NCBI GenBank assembly: GCA_031269685.1
Contig: JAISYU010000103.1
Coordinates: forward strand, 1-40,637
DNA from: Dysgonamonadaceae bacterium
GTDB lineage: Bacteria; Bacteroidota; Bacteroidia; Bacteroidales; Azobacteroidaceae
Direction: 5' to 3'
Length of the DNA stretch: 40,637 nt
In this document: positions 1 to 40,569 of the stretch, piece after piece
Numbering within the stretch: position 1 is the stretch's first letter
How the letters are laid out: each line of letters starts with the position of its first letter
Made by a program: the position numbers and the translations under genes
Notes under the pieces: model-generated
What the model was told of the DNA's origin: nothing
What the model saw: only the letters and a program-made list of their open reading frames with translations
Database searches by the model: none

Positions 1-814
1 AAATAGCAGGCTTGTTTAATGCCTCTTTAATTGCGGGATCTAAAGAGGTTACTTTTTCTATATAAGGAATCAATAACGCTATGATATTATTAAAACTGCC
101 TGAAAAGAGAAAACATCGAGAGTAAAATGACAACAGATGTCCTTGCAGATAGAAGAAAACACTCATAAATAACAATCCGAACAATGAACCTGCTATCAAC
201 ATAAAAATAGCATTTTTCGTTCGTTTTTTATCGGGTTGAAGGAAGTATATACAAACCAAGATGCCAAATACGTATGGACAGGCTTGAATACCGGATATAA
301 CTATAAGGAATGCGAATAGAGCCAAAAACCATTTCCTGATATTATAATAATAACCCGTTATAAATGCGGTTGTACATAACATATTGAGAACATCCACCCT
401 CCCATTCCTGTATATCCAGGAAAACATACCGCCACACCAGAATAATAATAGAAAAAGGAGCAGGGTATAATGGTTTTTAATGATGGATTTATCCCTCATA
501 AATCTGTATATAAGCAAGCTGATAAAAAATACTATAACTATATTCAGGCTTCTTAGGGATGTTGGAGATACACCGAACAGGTATATCCATGGTACTAACA
601 GAAATTGGCACAACGGAGGATATGTAGAATAAACTTTACCATTTTCCCCCCACCACGCTGTTGTTCGCCACTGTCCATCCAATATAAAATTAACCGGACT
701 GTCGACAAACATGATTTCATCTATCCACGTCAATGGCGTCCATGCCAGCGTAAACAGGTTTAAAACGATGAAAAACAGGCTGACTGCATAAAATATTACA
801 TGATTCTTGCTCAT
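1..814 (-). CDS. GT-C (GT39/ArnT-like) membrane glycosyltransferase, N-terminal part
   Basis: Translating the reverse strand from the ATG at 814 gives an open frame of 271 codons to the window edge with no stop, so the gene is cut off on its 3' side. The protein starts MSKNHVIFYAVSLFF, a first membrane helix, followed by an outer loop with WIDEIMFVDSP and a STYPPL segment. An acidic DE pair in the first extracytoplasmic loop is the usual catalytic site of GT-C enzymes that move sugars from polyprenyl-phosphate carriers. Several more hydrophobic helices follow. The role (glycan or protein glycosylation at the outer face of the inner membrane) is inferred from this topology, and the acceptor is unknown. 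The start lies 22 bp after a tandem-repeat array and downstream of leader cassette A, which points the same way. Confidence 0.72.
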   Translation of the reverse strand, partial: MSKNHVIFYAVSLFFIVLNLFTLAWTPLTWIDEIMFVDSPVNFILDGQWRTTAWWGENGKVYSTYPPLCQFLLVPWIYLFGVSPTSLRSLNIVIVFFISLLIYRFMRDKSIIKNHYTLLLFLLLFWCGGMFSWIYRNGRVDVLNMLCTTAFITGYYYNIRKWFLALFAFLIVISGIQACPYVFGILVCIYFLQPDKKRTKNAIFMLIAGSLFGLLFMSVFFYLQGHLLSFYSRCFLFSGSFNNIIALLIPYIEKVTSLDPAIKEALNKPAI

Positions 815-835
815 ATTGTCTTGATTATATCTTTG

Positions 836-1100
836 CCGCAGTTGCGGGAAATGAGAATCTTGCTTCCGGGACGTTTCCCGCAGTTGCGGCAAATAAGAAA
901 ATTGCTTCGGGATGTTTTCCGCAGTTGCGGGAAATAAGAATCTTGCTTCCGGGGCGTTTCCCGCAGTTGCGGGAAATAATAAAATTTCTTCGGGACGTTT
1001 ACCCCAAGTTCGGGTAATGATAATATTGCTTCCGGGAAGTTTCCCGCAGTTGCGGGAAATTAGAATCTTGCTTCCGGGACGTTTCCCGCAGTTGCGGGAA
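836..1100. repeat. Tandem array 1: seven ~42-bp units with a palindromic core
   Basis: The core CCGCAGTTGCGG recurs at about 836, 878, 919, 961, 1044 and 1086, with a degenerate copy near 1004. Spacing is 41-42 bp. The best copies have TTCCCGCA and TGCGGGAA arms around a 2-base centre, so each unit can form a hairpin. The core is in codon phase so that both strands read FPQLRE. The array ends 22 bp before the start codon of the minus-strand glycosyltransferase gene. Confidence 0.92.
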
Positions 1101-1136: not shown

Positions 1137-1333
<197 letters not shown>

Positions 1334-1353
1334 TAGTTATAAATTTACGGCGG

Positions 1354-1386
1354 CAAAGGTACGTATTTTTTTGAAACAACAACAAA
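1354..1386 (-). promoter_or_regulatory. Bacteroidota-type promoter of leader cassette A
   Basis: On the minus strand a TACCTTTG box lies at 1361-1354. Candidate upstream boxes are TTG at 1382-1380 (18-base spacer) or TTTG at 1386-1383 (21-base spacer). The segment TACGTACCTTTGCCGC nearly repeats the promoter of copy D (TACGTATCTTTGCCGC). Transcription would run through leader ORF A and array 1 into the glycosyltransferase. Confidence 0.6.
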
Positions 1387-8202: not shown

Positions 8203-8952
8203 TTATATGGTCTTAATCTCTTTGAACTCTTTCCATATTTCTGCGGCTTTGTAATCTTCAACGGACTCGGCGGGAACGTAAAGCGTGACGTTACTTAAAT
8301 CAACGTAATCAAATACCCCGCTGTTTATTCTTTGCGGCACCGGGTTAAGATTGGTAACTGAAGTCAGTCCTCTGCAACAGGAAAAAGCCGCATTTCCAAT
8401 ACTTGTTACACTGTTTCCAATAGTAACGGAAGTCAGTCCGCTGCAATCTTCAAAAGCCCCATTTCCAATACTTGTTACACTGTTGGGAATATTATAACTT
8501 GCATCCTGTTTCCCTTCAGGATATTTAATCAATTTGCTTTTTGCCTTATTGAACAGTACACCATTTTCAGACGCATAAGCCGTGTTATTTTCAGAGACAT
8601 CAATAGCCGTCAAAGCGCTGCAACTTCCAAAAGCCCCATTTCCAATACTTGTTACACTGTTTGGAATAGTAACGGAAGTCAGTCCGCTGCAATCGTAAAA
8701 AGCCCAATCTCCAATACTTGTTACACTTTCTGAAATAGTAACGGAAGTCAGTCCGATGCAATCGTAAAAAGCATCACGTCCAATACTTGTCACGCCATCC
8801 CCAATTACGACCGTTGTAATTGAAGATTTGTAAGAAGACCATGGAACCGAGTCGTCATAATCCGGCATCTCCCCTTCTCCGCTAATAGTTAATGTACCAT
8901 TAGATAGATTCCAGGTTAGCGGACCGGTTGTTCCGCTTATAAACTTGTTCAT
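8203..8952 (-). CDS. BspA-type leucine-rich-repeat protein without a signal peptide
   Basis: The 249-aa protein opens with SGTTGPLTWNLSNGTLTISG, a module common at the mature N-terminus of BspA-like surface proteins, followed by about five LRR_5 units of the form TSIGNGAFxxCSGLTSVTIPNSV. A spacer with NGVLFNKAKSKLIKYPEGK and a final YVPAESVEDYKAAEIWKEF also match the family. The frame upstream of the ATG closes at a stop about 40 bp away, so no hidden signal peptide is available. No T9SS domain is present. It may be cytoplasmic, exported another way, or a fragment of a longer surface protein. It lies 64 bp downstream of the 220-aa gene and is probably cotranscribed from cassette B. Confidence 0.85.
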   Translation of the reverse strand: MNKFISGTTGPLTWNLSNGTLTISGEGEMPDYDDSVPWSSYKSSITTVVIGDGVTSIGRDAFYDCIGLTSVTISESVTSIGDWAFYDCSGLTSVTIPNSVTSIGNGAFGSCSALTAIDVSENNTAYASENGVLFNKAKSKLIKYPEGKQDASYNIPNSVTSIGNGAFEDCSGLTSVTIGNSVTSIGNAAFSCCRGLTSVTNLNPVPQRINSGVFDYVDLSNVTLYVPAESVEDYKAAEIWKEFKEIKTI

Positions 8953-9016: not shown

Positions 9017-9679
9017 TTACGGAATCACTGCGGAATAAATCGGTGACCATGGACCCTTTTCAGCGCGGGTATTTTTCCATCTCGCAGCAAACCAGAATTT
9101 AGTACCCCTCTGTTCTTCGGTAAATTCGAGATCCAAAGGTGGATCGGTATCGAATTCGTTGAGGTTAAGTTGTGAGATGTCCAACGGGGCATCATTCGAG
9201 ATAAGGTAAACAAGTTCAATGCCGTGTTGCCCTTCCGGTTTTGCCCGTGAAGTTTCAGAGCCGCCATATTCGATGATGATATGACGGATAAGATGTGTCA
9301 ATGCCTTCATCCACGGATAATCATTCGCAACAGGCGAAGGTGTGCGCGTCTTCTTGTAGACAGTAAGTCCGAGGTTTATCCTGTCAGTGTCGGTTACTAA
9401 GTGATTGTGTTGGATGTACTCCTCAACGTCATTCCTGATCCTCTTTTCGAGAGCTGCCCGCGCTTTGTTCTTCTCATCAACCGCACTTGCAGTCCGTGTC
9501 GCTTTGTCGCTTGAGATTCCAAATTTATCTTCAAAATCATTGTATAGCGACAAAAGCAACAGTTGTTCGGCGCTCGGAAAACCGATGCGCGTCATAATTA
9601 CAGCCAGTCTTGTTACGAAGGTCTTTGACCACGTCTTAAATTCGGCGTCTTTTCTTGGAATATAGTCTCTTCTACTCAT
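9017..9679 (-). CDS. Conserved hypothetical protein, 220 aa (paralogue of 18347-19015)
   Basis: No catalytic motif or signal peptide is visible. The N-terminal half is mostly helical, beginning SRRDYIPRKDAEFKTWSKTF, with a heptad-like basic segment and TDTDRINLGLTVYKKTRTP near the middle. The C-terminal half looks beta-rich: AKPEGQHGIELVYLIS, then DPPLDLEFTEEQRGTKFWF and a closing ARWKNTRAEKGPWSPIYSAVIP, which resembles the last strands of a fibronectin III or Ig-like fold. I recall similar proteins of unknown role across Bacteroidota. The 222-aa protein at 18347-19015 aligns along its whole length. The gene starts 66 bp downstream of tandem array 2 and is followed by the LRR gene. Confidence 0.82.
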   Translation of the reverse strand: MSRRDYIPRKDAEFKTWSKTFVTRLAVIMTRIGFPSAEQLLLLSLYNDFEDKFGISSDKATRTASAVDEKNKARAALEKRIRNDVEEYIQHNHLVTDTDRINLGLTVYKKTRTPSPVANDYPWMKALTHLIRHIIIEYGGSETSRAKPEGQHGIELVYLISNDAPLDISQLNLNEFDTDPPLDLEFTEEQRGTKFWFAARWKNTRAEKGPWSPIYSAVIP

Positions 9680-9691
9680 AAAAAATAATGA

Positions 9692-10171
9692 TTAGTGGTT
9701 TTTATATCTTTTAAAATTCTTTCTCGTGTAAGATACAGACGATTTGGGTGCGCACCCAAATGTTTCGGGTGCGCACCCGGAAGTCTCGGGGATGCACCCG
9801 GAAGTTTCGGGTGCGCACCCAGAAGTATCGGGGATGCACCCGGAAGTTTCGGGTGCGCACCCAGAAGTCTCGGGGATGCACCCGGAAGTTTCGGGGATGC
9901 ACCCGGAAGTTTCGGGTGCGCACCCAGAAGTCTCGGGGATGCACCCGAAGTGTTCGAGGATATACCCTAATGATGCGGGTAAGTACCTGAAAGACTTGTG
10001 GTTTATGCTATTTGAAACAGTAATCGTATTATTCCAATCAAAAAGAGTACCGTATATATAAGAATATACGCCAATATTTTTTGATTTGGATCTGACAATG
10101 CCCGATAGTGTTGAGTACTTTTTAGTATCAGGTATCATCCTTCTGTTAATATACACGATATTACTATTCAT
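9692..10171 (-). CDS. Leader ORF B, 159 aa with a 7-residue tandem repeat (hypothetical)
   Basis: The frame opens at ATG 10171, 8 nt after the TAATTTTG promoter box, and closes 12 bp before the 220-aa gene. The N-terminus MNSNIVYINRRMIPDTKKY, then SGIVRSK, resembles leader ORF D (RRMPNTEKY, SGIVGSK). A middle stretch has TVSNSINHKSF. The rest is about ten ETSGC(A/I)P repeats encoded by array 2, then a basic tail. No signal peptide or known domain is seen. It could be a translated leader, a real repeat protein or an accidental frame across a regulatory repeat. Its similarity to ORF D is the main support. Confidence 0.4.
   Translation of the reverse strand: MNSNIVYINRRMIPDTKKYSTLSGIVRSKSKNIGVYSYIYGTLFDWNNTITVSNSINHKSFRYLPASLGYILEHFGCIPETSGCAPETSGCIPETSGCIPETSGCAPETSGCIPDTSGCAPETSGCIPETSGCAPETFGCAPKSSVSYTRKNFKRYKNH
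9746..9991. repeat. Tandem array 2: ~21-bp units with a 12-bp palindrome
   Basis: About ten regular units plus two degenerate ones. Each has GGGTGCGCACCC (a perfect palindrome) or GGGGATGCACCC, followed by a 9-base linker such as GGAAGTTTC or AGAAGTCTC. The two core types largely alternate. On the plus strand it reads as SGAHPEV/SGMHPEV, and on the minus strand as ETSGCAP/ETSGCIP. The array ends 66 bp before the 220-aa start codon. Confidence 0.95.
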
Positions 10172-10179
10172 AGAGACTG

Positions 10180-10210
10180 CAAAATTACATAAAGTTTTTA
10201 ATCCACCAAA
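10180..10210 (-). promoter_or_regulatory. Promoter of leader cassette B
   Basis: On the minus strand TTTG (10210-10207), a 19-base spacer and TAATTTTG (10187-10180) match the Bacteroides consensus exactly. The predicted start near 10173 is almost at the ATG of leader ORF B and gives the 220-aa gene a 5' leader of about 490 nt. It is divergent from the murQ promoter. Confidence 0.72.
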
Positions 10211-17866: not shown

Positions 17867-17874
17867 TACCTTTG
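17867..17874 (+). promoter_or_regulatory. -7 box (TACCTTTG) of leader cassette C
   Basis: TACCTTTG matches the consensus; at the -33 position only TCG is found, so the upstream half is weak. The ATG of leader ORF C follows after 8 nt, the same distance as in cassette B. Transcription would give the 222-aa gene a leader of about 470 nt. Confidence 0.5.
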
Positions 17875-17882
17875 TGGCAGTG

Positions 17883-17978
17883 ATGATAAAAAAAGTAATA
17901 CATAGCGCCGTAAATATTTCGCTGAGTAACGCAGATTATTTCGCGGGGTCAAATAAATTGCTGATATGTATAGGATAA
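17883..17978 (+). CDS. Leader ORF C, 31 aa (hypothetical, possibly truncated)
   Basis: The frame begins MIKKVIHSAVNISL, contains AGSNKLLI and stops at TAA 17976-17978. Its DNA segment GGGGTCAAATAAATTGCTGA resembles GTGTCAAATATTTTGTTAA in leaders A and D. The same frame stays open beyond the stop, reading through array 3 as RIEKNHRRGGKVSR repeats, so the stop may have shortened a longer repeat ORF like that of cassette B. Translation is unproven. Confidence 0.3.
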   Translation: MIKKVIHSAVNISLSNADYFAGSNKLLICIG

Positions 17979-17986
17979 ATTCCCTT

Positions 17987-18296
17987 ACGTATAGAAAAAA
18001 ATCATAGACGTGGGGGAAAAGTTTCCAGACGTATAGAAAAAAATCATAGACGTGGGGGAAAAGTTTCCAGACGTATAGAAAAAAATCATAGACGTAAGGA
18101 AAAAGTTTCTAGACGTATAGAAAAAAATCATAGACGTAGAGGAAAAGTTTCTAAATGTATAGAAAAAAATCATAGACGTAAGGGAAAAGTTTCTAAACGT
18201 ATAGAAAAAAATCATAGATGTAAGGGAAAAGTTTCCAGACGTATAGAAAAAAATCATAGACATAAGGAAAAAATTTCCAGACGTATAGAAAAAAAT
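17987..18296. repeat. Tandem array 3: seven 42-bp units plus a partial eighth
   Basis: Each unit reads ACGTATAGAAAAAAATCATA, then GACGT, a purine-rich stretch (such as GGGGGAAAA or AAGGGAAAA) and GTTTCCAG or GTTTCTAA. Only scattered single-base changes separate the units and there are no unique spacers. The period is exactly 42 bp. The array lies on the 5' side of the 222-aa gene, ending about 50 bp before its ATG. Confidence 0.96.
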
Positions 18297-18346: not shown

Positions 18347-19015
18347 ATGGCAAGTAAAAAACCTTACTATCTGCCCTACAAGCATACGCTGCTATTGGCG
18401 TGGGGCAGGAACTTTATCAACAAACTTGCGCCAAATATTGTAACATGGGGCGTGCCGGAAGACGAATTTGATGACCTCAAGGTCAAAGGTGATCTATTTG
18501 ACGCCGCGCAGATGAAGGCGGAACATCCGAATGCAGGTAAAACCGACAGGTTCGACAGAAACGTAAAAGCGAAAGCCTTCAAGAATGCCGCGCGAGATCT
18601 TGTCAATGCGTATCTTCGTAATAACAAGAAACTTACAGATCAGGATCGCATGGATCTCGGTATCCCAATACCGGACAAAACCAGGACGAAGATTGATGTT
18701 CCGAACAGTCATCCGGTGATTAAACTTAGATTAGTCGATTCCGGTGTTATCCGCGCCGATTTTAAGGATCAGTACAGCGAATCTAAGGCAAAACCTTACG
18801 GAACCAATGGCGCTATGTTCATCTTTGCAGTGCTTGATACATCTCCCGTTGACCACAGCGAACTGCAAGAGAACGTTTTCGTAACCCGTACCCCTTACAA
18901 GTTCGAGTTTGAAGATAAATTCCGCAATCATACGCTTTATGTTGCCGCCGCTTGGCAAAACGAAAAAGGTAAGCGAGGACGATGGTCGGATATTCAGTCG
19001 ATTATTATTCCGTAA
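18347..19015 (+). CDS. Conserved hypothetical protein, 222 aa (paralogue of 9017-9679)
   Basis: The protein matches the 220-aa protein in order: YLPYKHTLLLAWGRNFINKLA at the N-terminus, KLTDQDRMDLGIPIPDKTRT in the middle, SKAKPYGTNGAMFIF, TPYKFEFEDKFRNHTLYVAAAWQNEKGKRGRW and a final SIIIP. It has no signal peptide and no known catalytic motif; the second half looks like an Ig or fibronectin III fold. The first part has a family-specific insertion (about 45-75, rich in Lys and Asp). It stands alone behind tandem array 3 and is followed by a terminator, whereas its paralogue has an LRR gene behind it. The function is unknown. Confidence 0.82.
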   Translation: MASKKPYYLPYKHTLLLAWGRNFINKLAPNIVTWGVPEDEFDDLKVKGDLFDAAQMKAEHPNAGKTDRFDRNVKAKAFKNAARDLVNAYLRNNKKLTDQDRMDLGIPIPDKTRTKIDVPNSHPVIKLRLVDSGVIRADFKDQYSESKAKPYGTNGAMFIFAVLDTSPVDHSELQENVFVTRTPYKFEFEDKFRNHTLYVAAAWQNEKGKRGRWSDIQSIIIP

Positions 19016-40267: not shown

Positions 40268-40297
40268 TTGTTTGTTTAAAAAAAGTACGTATCTTTG
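40268..40297 (+). promoter_or_regulatory. Promoter of leader cassette D
   Basis: TTG at 40268-40270, 19 bases, TATCTTTG at 40290-40297. The ATG of leader ORF D follows 9 nt after the box. The segment TACGTATCTTTGCCGC nearly repeats the cassette A promoter. Confidence 0.72.
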
Positions 40298-40306
40298 CCG
40301 CGTCTT

Positions 40307-40569
<263 letters not shown>

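Follow-up and report, generated by a model that had tools for sequence, protein, structure and literature searches.

The question raised by this locus is why a single window, i.e., the whole analysed stretch of 40,637 nt of contig JAISYU010000103.1 (GenBank assembly GCA_031269685.1, a Dysgonamonadaceae bacterium of the Bacteroidales), should hold four places (copies A to D) at which a TAnnTTTG promoter box is followed by a start codon, a short open reading frame (ORF), and low-complexity tandem repeats, in A, B, and C in front of a gene. The initial annotation had described these places as four copies of one cassette sharing a motif close to TGTCAAATA, and what it observed is real: all four layouts are present in the sequence (Table 1), although the phenomenon is much bigger than was reported. 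However, several of its particulars require correction. The motif TGTCAAATA alone, whose frequency had been named beforehand as a test of the idea, is close to chance, also with one mismatch allowed, as TCAAATA occurs 15 times in the window against 10.6 expected; what is non-random is the whole motif TCAAATA-N6-TAACACACAC, which is found at 47 places in the genome against 0 for the reversed control. Moreover, the four copies are not one sequence family, and the supposed long 5' leader of B is almost wholly an ORF whose stop lies 12 nt before the gene.

Table 1. Features of the four leader cassettes and their neighbours within the 40,637-nt window.
Copy	Feature	Position	Strand	Description	Basis
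A	Promoter box	1354-1361	-	TACCTTTG	Read directly
A	Leader ORF	1181-1333	-	ATG at 1333; 50 codons plus stop (MTSIAISKVFSGNTSNNLAVSNILLTHTHTHTHTHTSHPFIPYYIRTGAR)	Translation; same family in loci L010, L048, L049, and L051
A	AC run	1226-1258	-	TGTCAAATATTTTGTTA(AC)16, coding (Thr-His)n	TRF
A	Possible hairpin	1177-1210	-	Tandem stop TAATAA at its 3' base	Single-sequence fold; no covariation support
A	Array	832-1100	-	42-bp units with palindrome TTTCCCGCAACTGCGGGAAA	TRF; inverted repeats
A	Inverted pair	828-842 and 1347-1361		15 nt, promoter box region and end of the array (TATCTTTGCCGCAGT / ACGGCGGCAAAGGTA); copy A only	Inverted repeats
A	Gene behind	1-814	-	ATG at 814; open at the window edge; likely a membrane glycosyltransferase	By eye only; no significant Pfam match
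B	Promoter box	10180-10187	-	TAATTTTG (sigma-ABfr -7 type)	Read directly; same box and upstream consensus in 10 genome copies
B	Leader ORF	9692-10171	-	ATG at 10171, 8 nt behind the box; 159 codons plus stop; open through the array	Translation; frame 0 open, frames +1/+2 closed
B	Motif			GTTTCAAATAGC	Read directly
B	Array	9751-9961	-	21/63-bp unit; 21-bp units (heptapeptide SGC(I/A)PET) with palindromes such as CGGGTGCGCACCCG	TRF; RNA fold of the leader z=-10.8; inverted repeats
B	Gene behind	9017-9679	-	ATG at 9679; 220-aa protein of the FnIII-like family	ORF list; alignment with gene C
B	Next gene	8203-8952		BspA-type leucine-rich-repeat gene with 69-bp internal repeats, right behind the B gene
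C	Promoter box	17867-17874	+	TACCTTTG	Read directly
C	Leader ORF	17883-17978	+	ATG at 17883; 31 codons plus stop; ends before the array	Translation
C	Motif			GGGTCAAATAAA	Read directly
C	Array	17987-18296	+	42-bp units	TRF
C	Gene behind	18347-19015	+	ATG at 18347; 222-aa FnIII-like family protein	Homology search; alignment with gene B; structure prediction
D	Promoter box	40290-40297	+	TATCTTTG	Read directly
D	Leader ORF	40307-40525	+	ATG at 40307; 72 codons plus stop	Frame tests; at least 45 relatives in the genome
D	AC run	40430-40477	+	TGTCAAATATTTTGTTA(AC)24; contig edge follows	TRF
D	Possible hairpin	40493-40528	+	With tandem stop	Single-sequence fold

A and D are members of one family that shares the promoter region, a start codon 8-20 nt behind the box, a peptide ending in VSNILLTHTHTH or MSNILLTHTHTH (SNILLTHTHTH..) coded by TGTCAAATATTTTGTTA(AC)n, and a short conserved tail that can fold as a hairpin, followed in A by an array. 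B shares part of its N-terminal peptide with D (M.PDTKKYSTLSGIVRSKS against MPNTEKYFITSGIVGSKL) but has no AC run, and its frame runs on through an array of 21-bp units; C, in turn, shares only the layout. A search of the genome (2.23 Mb, 125 contigs, 93% complete) with copy D gave 48 DNA matches at about 40 loci, many of them at contig ends, and peptide searches gave 45-48 matches, many at the same places; hence there are at least 45 copies of the A/D type, a lower bound because the assembly tends to break inside these repeats, and short-read genomes of this group will under-represent them. By contrast, a strict motif search across 393 genomes of the order returned, outside the own genome, only chance-level single hits with controls as frequent, so that the exact AC leader is restricted, and a weak leader hit in one further genome (G013) lies inside an ordinary gene and is attributable to chance. 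Sister species have the same plan only here and there, with unrelated N-termini, for example MNTLQKTKRTQNGAAVYLVISNILLTHTH.. and ..LAVWNNLLTHTH.. in G010, ..LCVSNILLNTHTH.. in G014, and ..LLFSNNYITHTH.. in front of a SusC-like gene in G016. A scan of named genomes with the leader peptide alignment found nothing, whereas a DNA pattern found three related loci. The named records holding the G010 and G016 stretches are MAGs labelled Dysgonamonadaceae, and an uncultured Bacteroidales MAG carries ..CISNNLITHTHTHTK in front of another SusC-like gene; the isolate names may point to termite guts.

Whether the reading frame of the A/D type is maintained was examined in 32 distinct copies of equal length, in which frame 0 is open in all 32 and frames +1 and +2 are closed in all 32. 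The amino-acid constraint is weak (pN/pS of 0.65 in frame against 0.76-0.77 in the other frames, which is not decisive), so that openness is kept more than a sequence. After the AC run, which varies from 2 to 44 copies among paralogs, 15 of 23 copies with the tail keep the one phase that meets the tandem stop AGA-TAA-TAA at the base of the hairpin (p=0.002), although this test treats related copies as independent, which they are only in part. These dipeptide runs may also suggest amino-acid-sensing attenuation, in which ribosomes would stall in the (Thr-His)n run, or in the (Glu-Arg)n run described below, when the charged tRNAs are short, thereby changing the hairpin behind and so the downstream gene. 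The conserved contexts SNILLTHTH and AVERERER and the favoured tandem stop speak for this reading; however, the run length is very variable, most array-type leaders have no such run, and no intrinsic terminator or alternative hairpin was shown. The hairpins are predicted from single sequences, with no covariation support and no consensus structure, because the GC part varies in length. Attenuation is considered very unlikely.

The copies of the A/D type also recombine. Two promoter classes (TATCTTTG with one upstream consensus and TAATTTTG with another) are joined to the same N-terminal peptide types, and 34 of 45 pairs of informative sites show all four gametes, while conservation begins about 40-50 bp upstream of the box. 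Such mosaic copies raise the alternative that these are selfish or hitch-hiking repeats, namely a mobile promoter or MITE-like element (the A/D type) plus slippage-made minisatellites, tolerated upstream of genes without a regulatory role. In its favour, 45 or more near-identical copies exist in one genome and few in sister species, and many short tandem arrays of other periods are also present. However, no terminal inverted repeats are common to A, B, and C (a 15-nt pair occurs in A only), the copies inspected have one orientation towards the gene behind, the frame is kept open, and the unit length is shared by unrelated arrays in many species, rendering this explanation doubtful.

The larger system became apparent from the gene behind C, which belongs to a paralog family of about 220 aa with 28 matches in this genome, and also present in several other families of the order. 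AlphaFold2 predicts a helical domain and a beta domain for the C protein (mean pLDDT 88, pTM 0.49), with Foldseek hits to FnIII domains over about 100 residues and, weakly, to FnIII-bearing phage tail and receptor-binding proteins, whereas no Pfam or NCBIfam model matched this undescribed family. Reading upstream of these paralogs showed that most have a box, an ATG, and an array, with a different unit at each locus. TRF on the upstream regions of this family in the own genome and nine sister species, plus other leader loci, gave 72 arrays of period 8-30, of which 62 have period 21, 5 have period 20, and 5 have others; the mean self-match is 0.82 at lag 21, at most 0.34 at lags 19, 20, 22, and 23, and 0.21 at lag 7. 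The unit length is locked, with 67 of 72 arrays at 20 or 21 bp, while the unit sequence differs at every locus.

A 417-kb sample of the genome (G000), chosen as long contigs plus the window, holds 51 arrays, 33 of them of the 21-bp family (7.9 per 100 kb), and by extrapolation this genome would hold about 175; the corresponding densities are 4.5 in G036, a second species of the genus, and 5.7 in G240, a more distant genome of another family with mostly 42-bp units, with none in 61 kb of G003. In G000 and G036 together, only 1 of 37 classed arrays lies between convergent genes against 30 of 193 intergenic gaps, whereas in G240 3 of 9 do; thus, length-locked arrays are wider than the genus, while strict upstream placement is shown only within it. 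Arrays of other kinds accompany them in G000. For instance, a 23-bp minisatellite with the same palindromic unit (GTCGTTGCATGCCTGCATACATT type), unlike the 21-bp arrays and closer in style to the BrickBuilt element discussed below, is found at three loci (C52:9218-9333, C52:56568-56685, and C53:7626-7825, in L224, L226, and L219), and paired 22-bp and 44-bp arrays at two loci (C122:25193-25784 and C53:39344-39793) are apparently another dispersed repeat. Arrays of 9-bp units close to TTAAAGTCC (C118:23796, C118:31883, C53:15062-15544, C14:11906, and C100:37105) are often next to 21-bp arrays.

The arrays can be further related to the leader ORF. At 29 loci with a box and an ATG ahead of an array, the frame of that ATG is open to the array's end in 24, whereas the other two frames are open in 7 of 58 (Fisher p=1e-10), and read-through is seen in 20/56 sense against 3/56 antisense cases. 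Most read-through leaders stop between -14 and +58 nt of the next gene's ATG, with two further away, as in coupled genes, although some closeness of stop and next start is expected in AT-rich DNA. On the other hand, copies C, D, and A stop before the array, and about half of the loci in the gene-anchored sets have no recognisable box plus ATG. Alternatively, the leaders could be small proteins with a job of their own, i.e., hypervariable heptad-repeat proteins encoded in an operon with the next gene, given that ORFs of 51-177 aa are kept open with 7-residue repeats. However, changes inside the arrays fall equally on the three codon positions and are mostly non-synonymous (81 synonymous, 197 not), no conserved residue pattern is present, and searches of Pfam and NCBIfam gave nothing convincing on the leaders; this alternative is regarded as very unlikely.

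The reason for a unit of 21 bp is less straightforward, since 21 bp is 7 codons and also two turns of B-DNA. Period-20 arrays without a leader ORF (L203, L206, and L218) argue that the frame alone does not set the length. Palindromic stems of 5 bp or more occur in 32 of 67 units against 8.3 expected in shuffles, and the whole B leader folds at z=-10.8; a structural constraint therefore acts too, in which RNA hairpins and DNA palindromes cannot be separated. The main rival explanation accordingly operates at the DNA level, where the arrays would be rows of palindromes placed two helical turns apart, acting by protein docking or cruciform formation near promoters, with the open frame as a by-product or a minor constraint. 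The period of 21 (and sometimes 20) rather than other multiples of 3, the palindrome excess, the lack of peptide selection, the arrays without ORFs, and the arrays between convergent genes in G240 are in line with it. However, the strong frame and strand asymmetries are not expected under this view, and the unit sequences differ everywhere, so that no sequence-specific protein could bind them all. This rival remains possible but unlikely, and it does not exclude a translated leader.

A replica of the plan is found outside this lineage. Several distant homologs of the FnIII-like family in other families of the order also have 21-bp arrays (20-bp in L243) in front, and short 7-bp arrays (AAATAAA, AATCTAA, and AATTGAC types) lie just behind the FnIII-like gene in distant homologs (L240, L250, and L252 at about 2216-2250, 2216-2252, and 1190-1228, respectively, and L242 at 2236-2266). 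In one of these genomes (G215), four leaders start about 75 nt before a conserved ..AVERERERE.. coded by GTAGAGAGAG.., all in frame: MPLIAINPQHLTPANYLLWQPVSHTAVERERER.., MPLILINQLYFSSSNYFLQLPVSHAAVERERE, MLKSNTVMSLLNTQQLYYRPASLSAVERERER.., and MPITEMFHQKVIASALLQQYSVALAAVERERER... Three precede FnIII-like genes and one a lipoprotein-like gene. A leader ORF with a dinucleotide-coded dipeptide run, then an array, then a gene is thus seen with two different dinucleotides, (AC)n coding (Thr-His)n and (AG)n coding (Glu-Arg)n.

Taken together, a cis-acting translated leader is the best, albeit tentative, explanation. In this view, transcription would start just behind the TAnnTTTG box, as inferred from the consensus, and ribosomes would start at an AUG near the 5' end and translate a leader ORF whose exact peptide hardly matters. 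The ORF would run through a mutable tract (a dinucleotide run, an array of about 21-bp units, or both) and end at a hairpin or shortly before the next gene's start codon, and the downstream gene would depend on this ribosome traffic by translational coupling, protection from termination, or melting of the hairpin array. Gain and loss of 21-bp units would change leader length and structure without shifting the frame, whereas changes in (AC)n would shift it, thereby making the leader a tuning knob or a switch. The anatomy, the open frame, the locked unit length with free sequence, the palindrome excess, the recombination between copies, and the position upstream of genes were established here from sequence, whereas transcription, translation with ribosome occupancy, coupling, and phase variation are inferences made without RNA, ribosome, or protein data. 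As published background, TAnnTTTG promoters and the rarity of 5' UTRs under 10 nt are documented in B. theta (PMC7366714), and CA repeats near the start are reported to raise translation, leaderless included (PMC9031893).

The interpretation offered by the initial annotation, a dispersed cis-regulatory cassette or leader-peptide system in front of surface or unknown genes, is therefore partly supported. A dispersed unit of promoter, short ORF, and repeat in front of genes, with many more copies in the genome and others in relatives, and leader ORFs that pass frame tests are upheld; not supported are one homologous cassette and the limitation of the genes behind to surface or unknown ones, since probable Met-tRNA synthetase, MiaB-like, and flippase genes (named from their N-termini only) are also found, and BspA-like genes follow leaders elsewhere (L034 and L083). 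Its suggested control of expression and phase variation remains inferential.

Several known systems resemble these leaders in part. The BrickBuilt MITE of Porphyromonas gingivalis (PMC4596501), also of the Bacteroidales, is dispersed in many intergenic copies with a leader, a minisatellite, a tail, predicted stem-loops, and promoter activity; however, it has a 23-nt unit with related sequence in all copies, small terminal inverted repeats, and either orientation, whereas here the unit is 21 bp with a different sequence at each locus, no terminal inverted repeats are shared, the frame is open from the promoter, and one orientation is seen. The TAACTGA heptamer repeats of Beggiatoaceae, Cyanobacteria, and some Bacteroidetes (PMC4679880) are likewise genome-wide direct repeats just upstream of start codons of unrelated genes and are proposed to act on translation, but consist of one fixed 7-nt word, in contrast to 21-bp units of free sequence and long leader ORFs. 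Leader peptides of attenuators and translational-coupling leaders also comprise a short translated ORF before the gene, a hairpin at its end, and runs of a few amino acids; here, tens of unrelated genes share the plan, the peptide is not conserved, and the runs are microsatellites of very variable length. In repeat-tuned mRNA leaders, such as the G-run in the Helicobacter pylori tlpB leader (PMC8295292), a variable repeat sets expression, yet it is a homopolymer acting through an sRNA at one operon, as opposed to many loci with putatively translated leaders, whose length variation is so far seen among paralogs and not within a population. Mobile promoters similarly place near-identical promoter regions in front of unrelated genes in one genome, but here the copied unit includes an ORF, a microsatellite, and often an array, and shows mosaic recombination. 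In addition, no match above the Rfam gathering score was found in the window. The parts (leader ORF, variable tandem repeat, and slippage) are of known kinds; however, literature searches, confined to openly licensed papers, found no matching arrays in Bacteroidales and no description of a population of leaders in which unit length is fixed and unit sequence is free.

A further-reaching possibility, held only tentatively, is that these leaders form a new class of gene-control element in Bacteroidales, whose repeat is free in sequence but locked in length. Selection would keep only the unit length (21 bp, the smallest that satisfies both the reading frame and whole turns of DNA), an open frame from the promoter, and often one palindrome per unit, while dinucleotide runs arisen at least twice would act as frame switches; together they would set the expression of perhaps 150 genes or more per genome. 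Many unrelated sequences obeying one length rule pose a clear question, namely whether the ribosome (7 codons) or the double helix (two turns) fixes the unit at 21 bp. If the translated-leader reading is true, a large share of the genes in this gut lineage would sit behind hypermutable translated leaders that gene annotation misses, and repeat gain and loss could tune their expression without breaking a frame.
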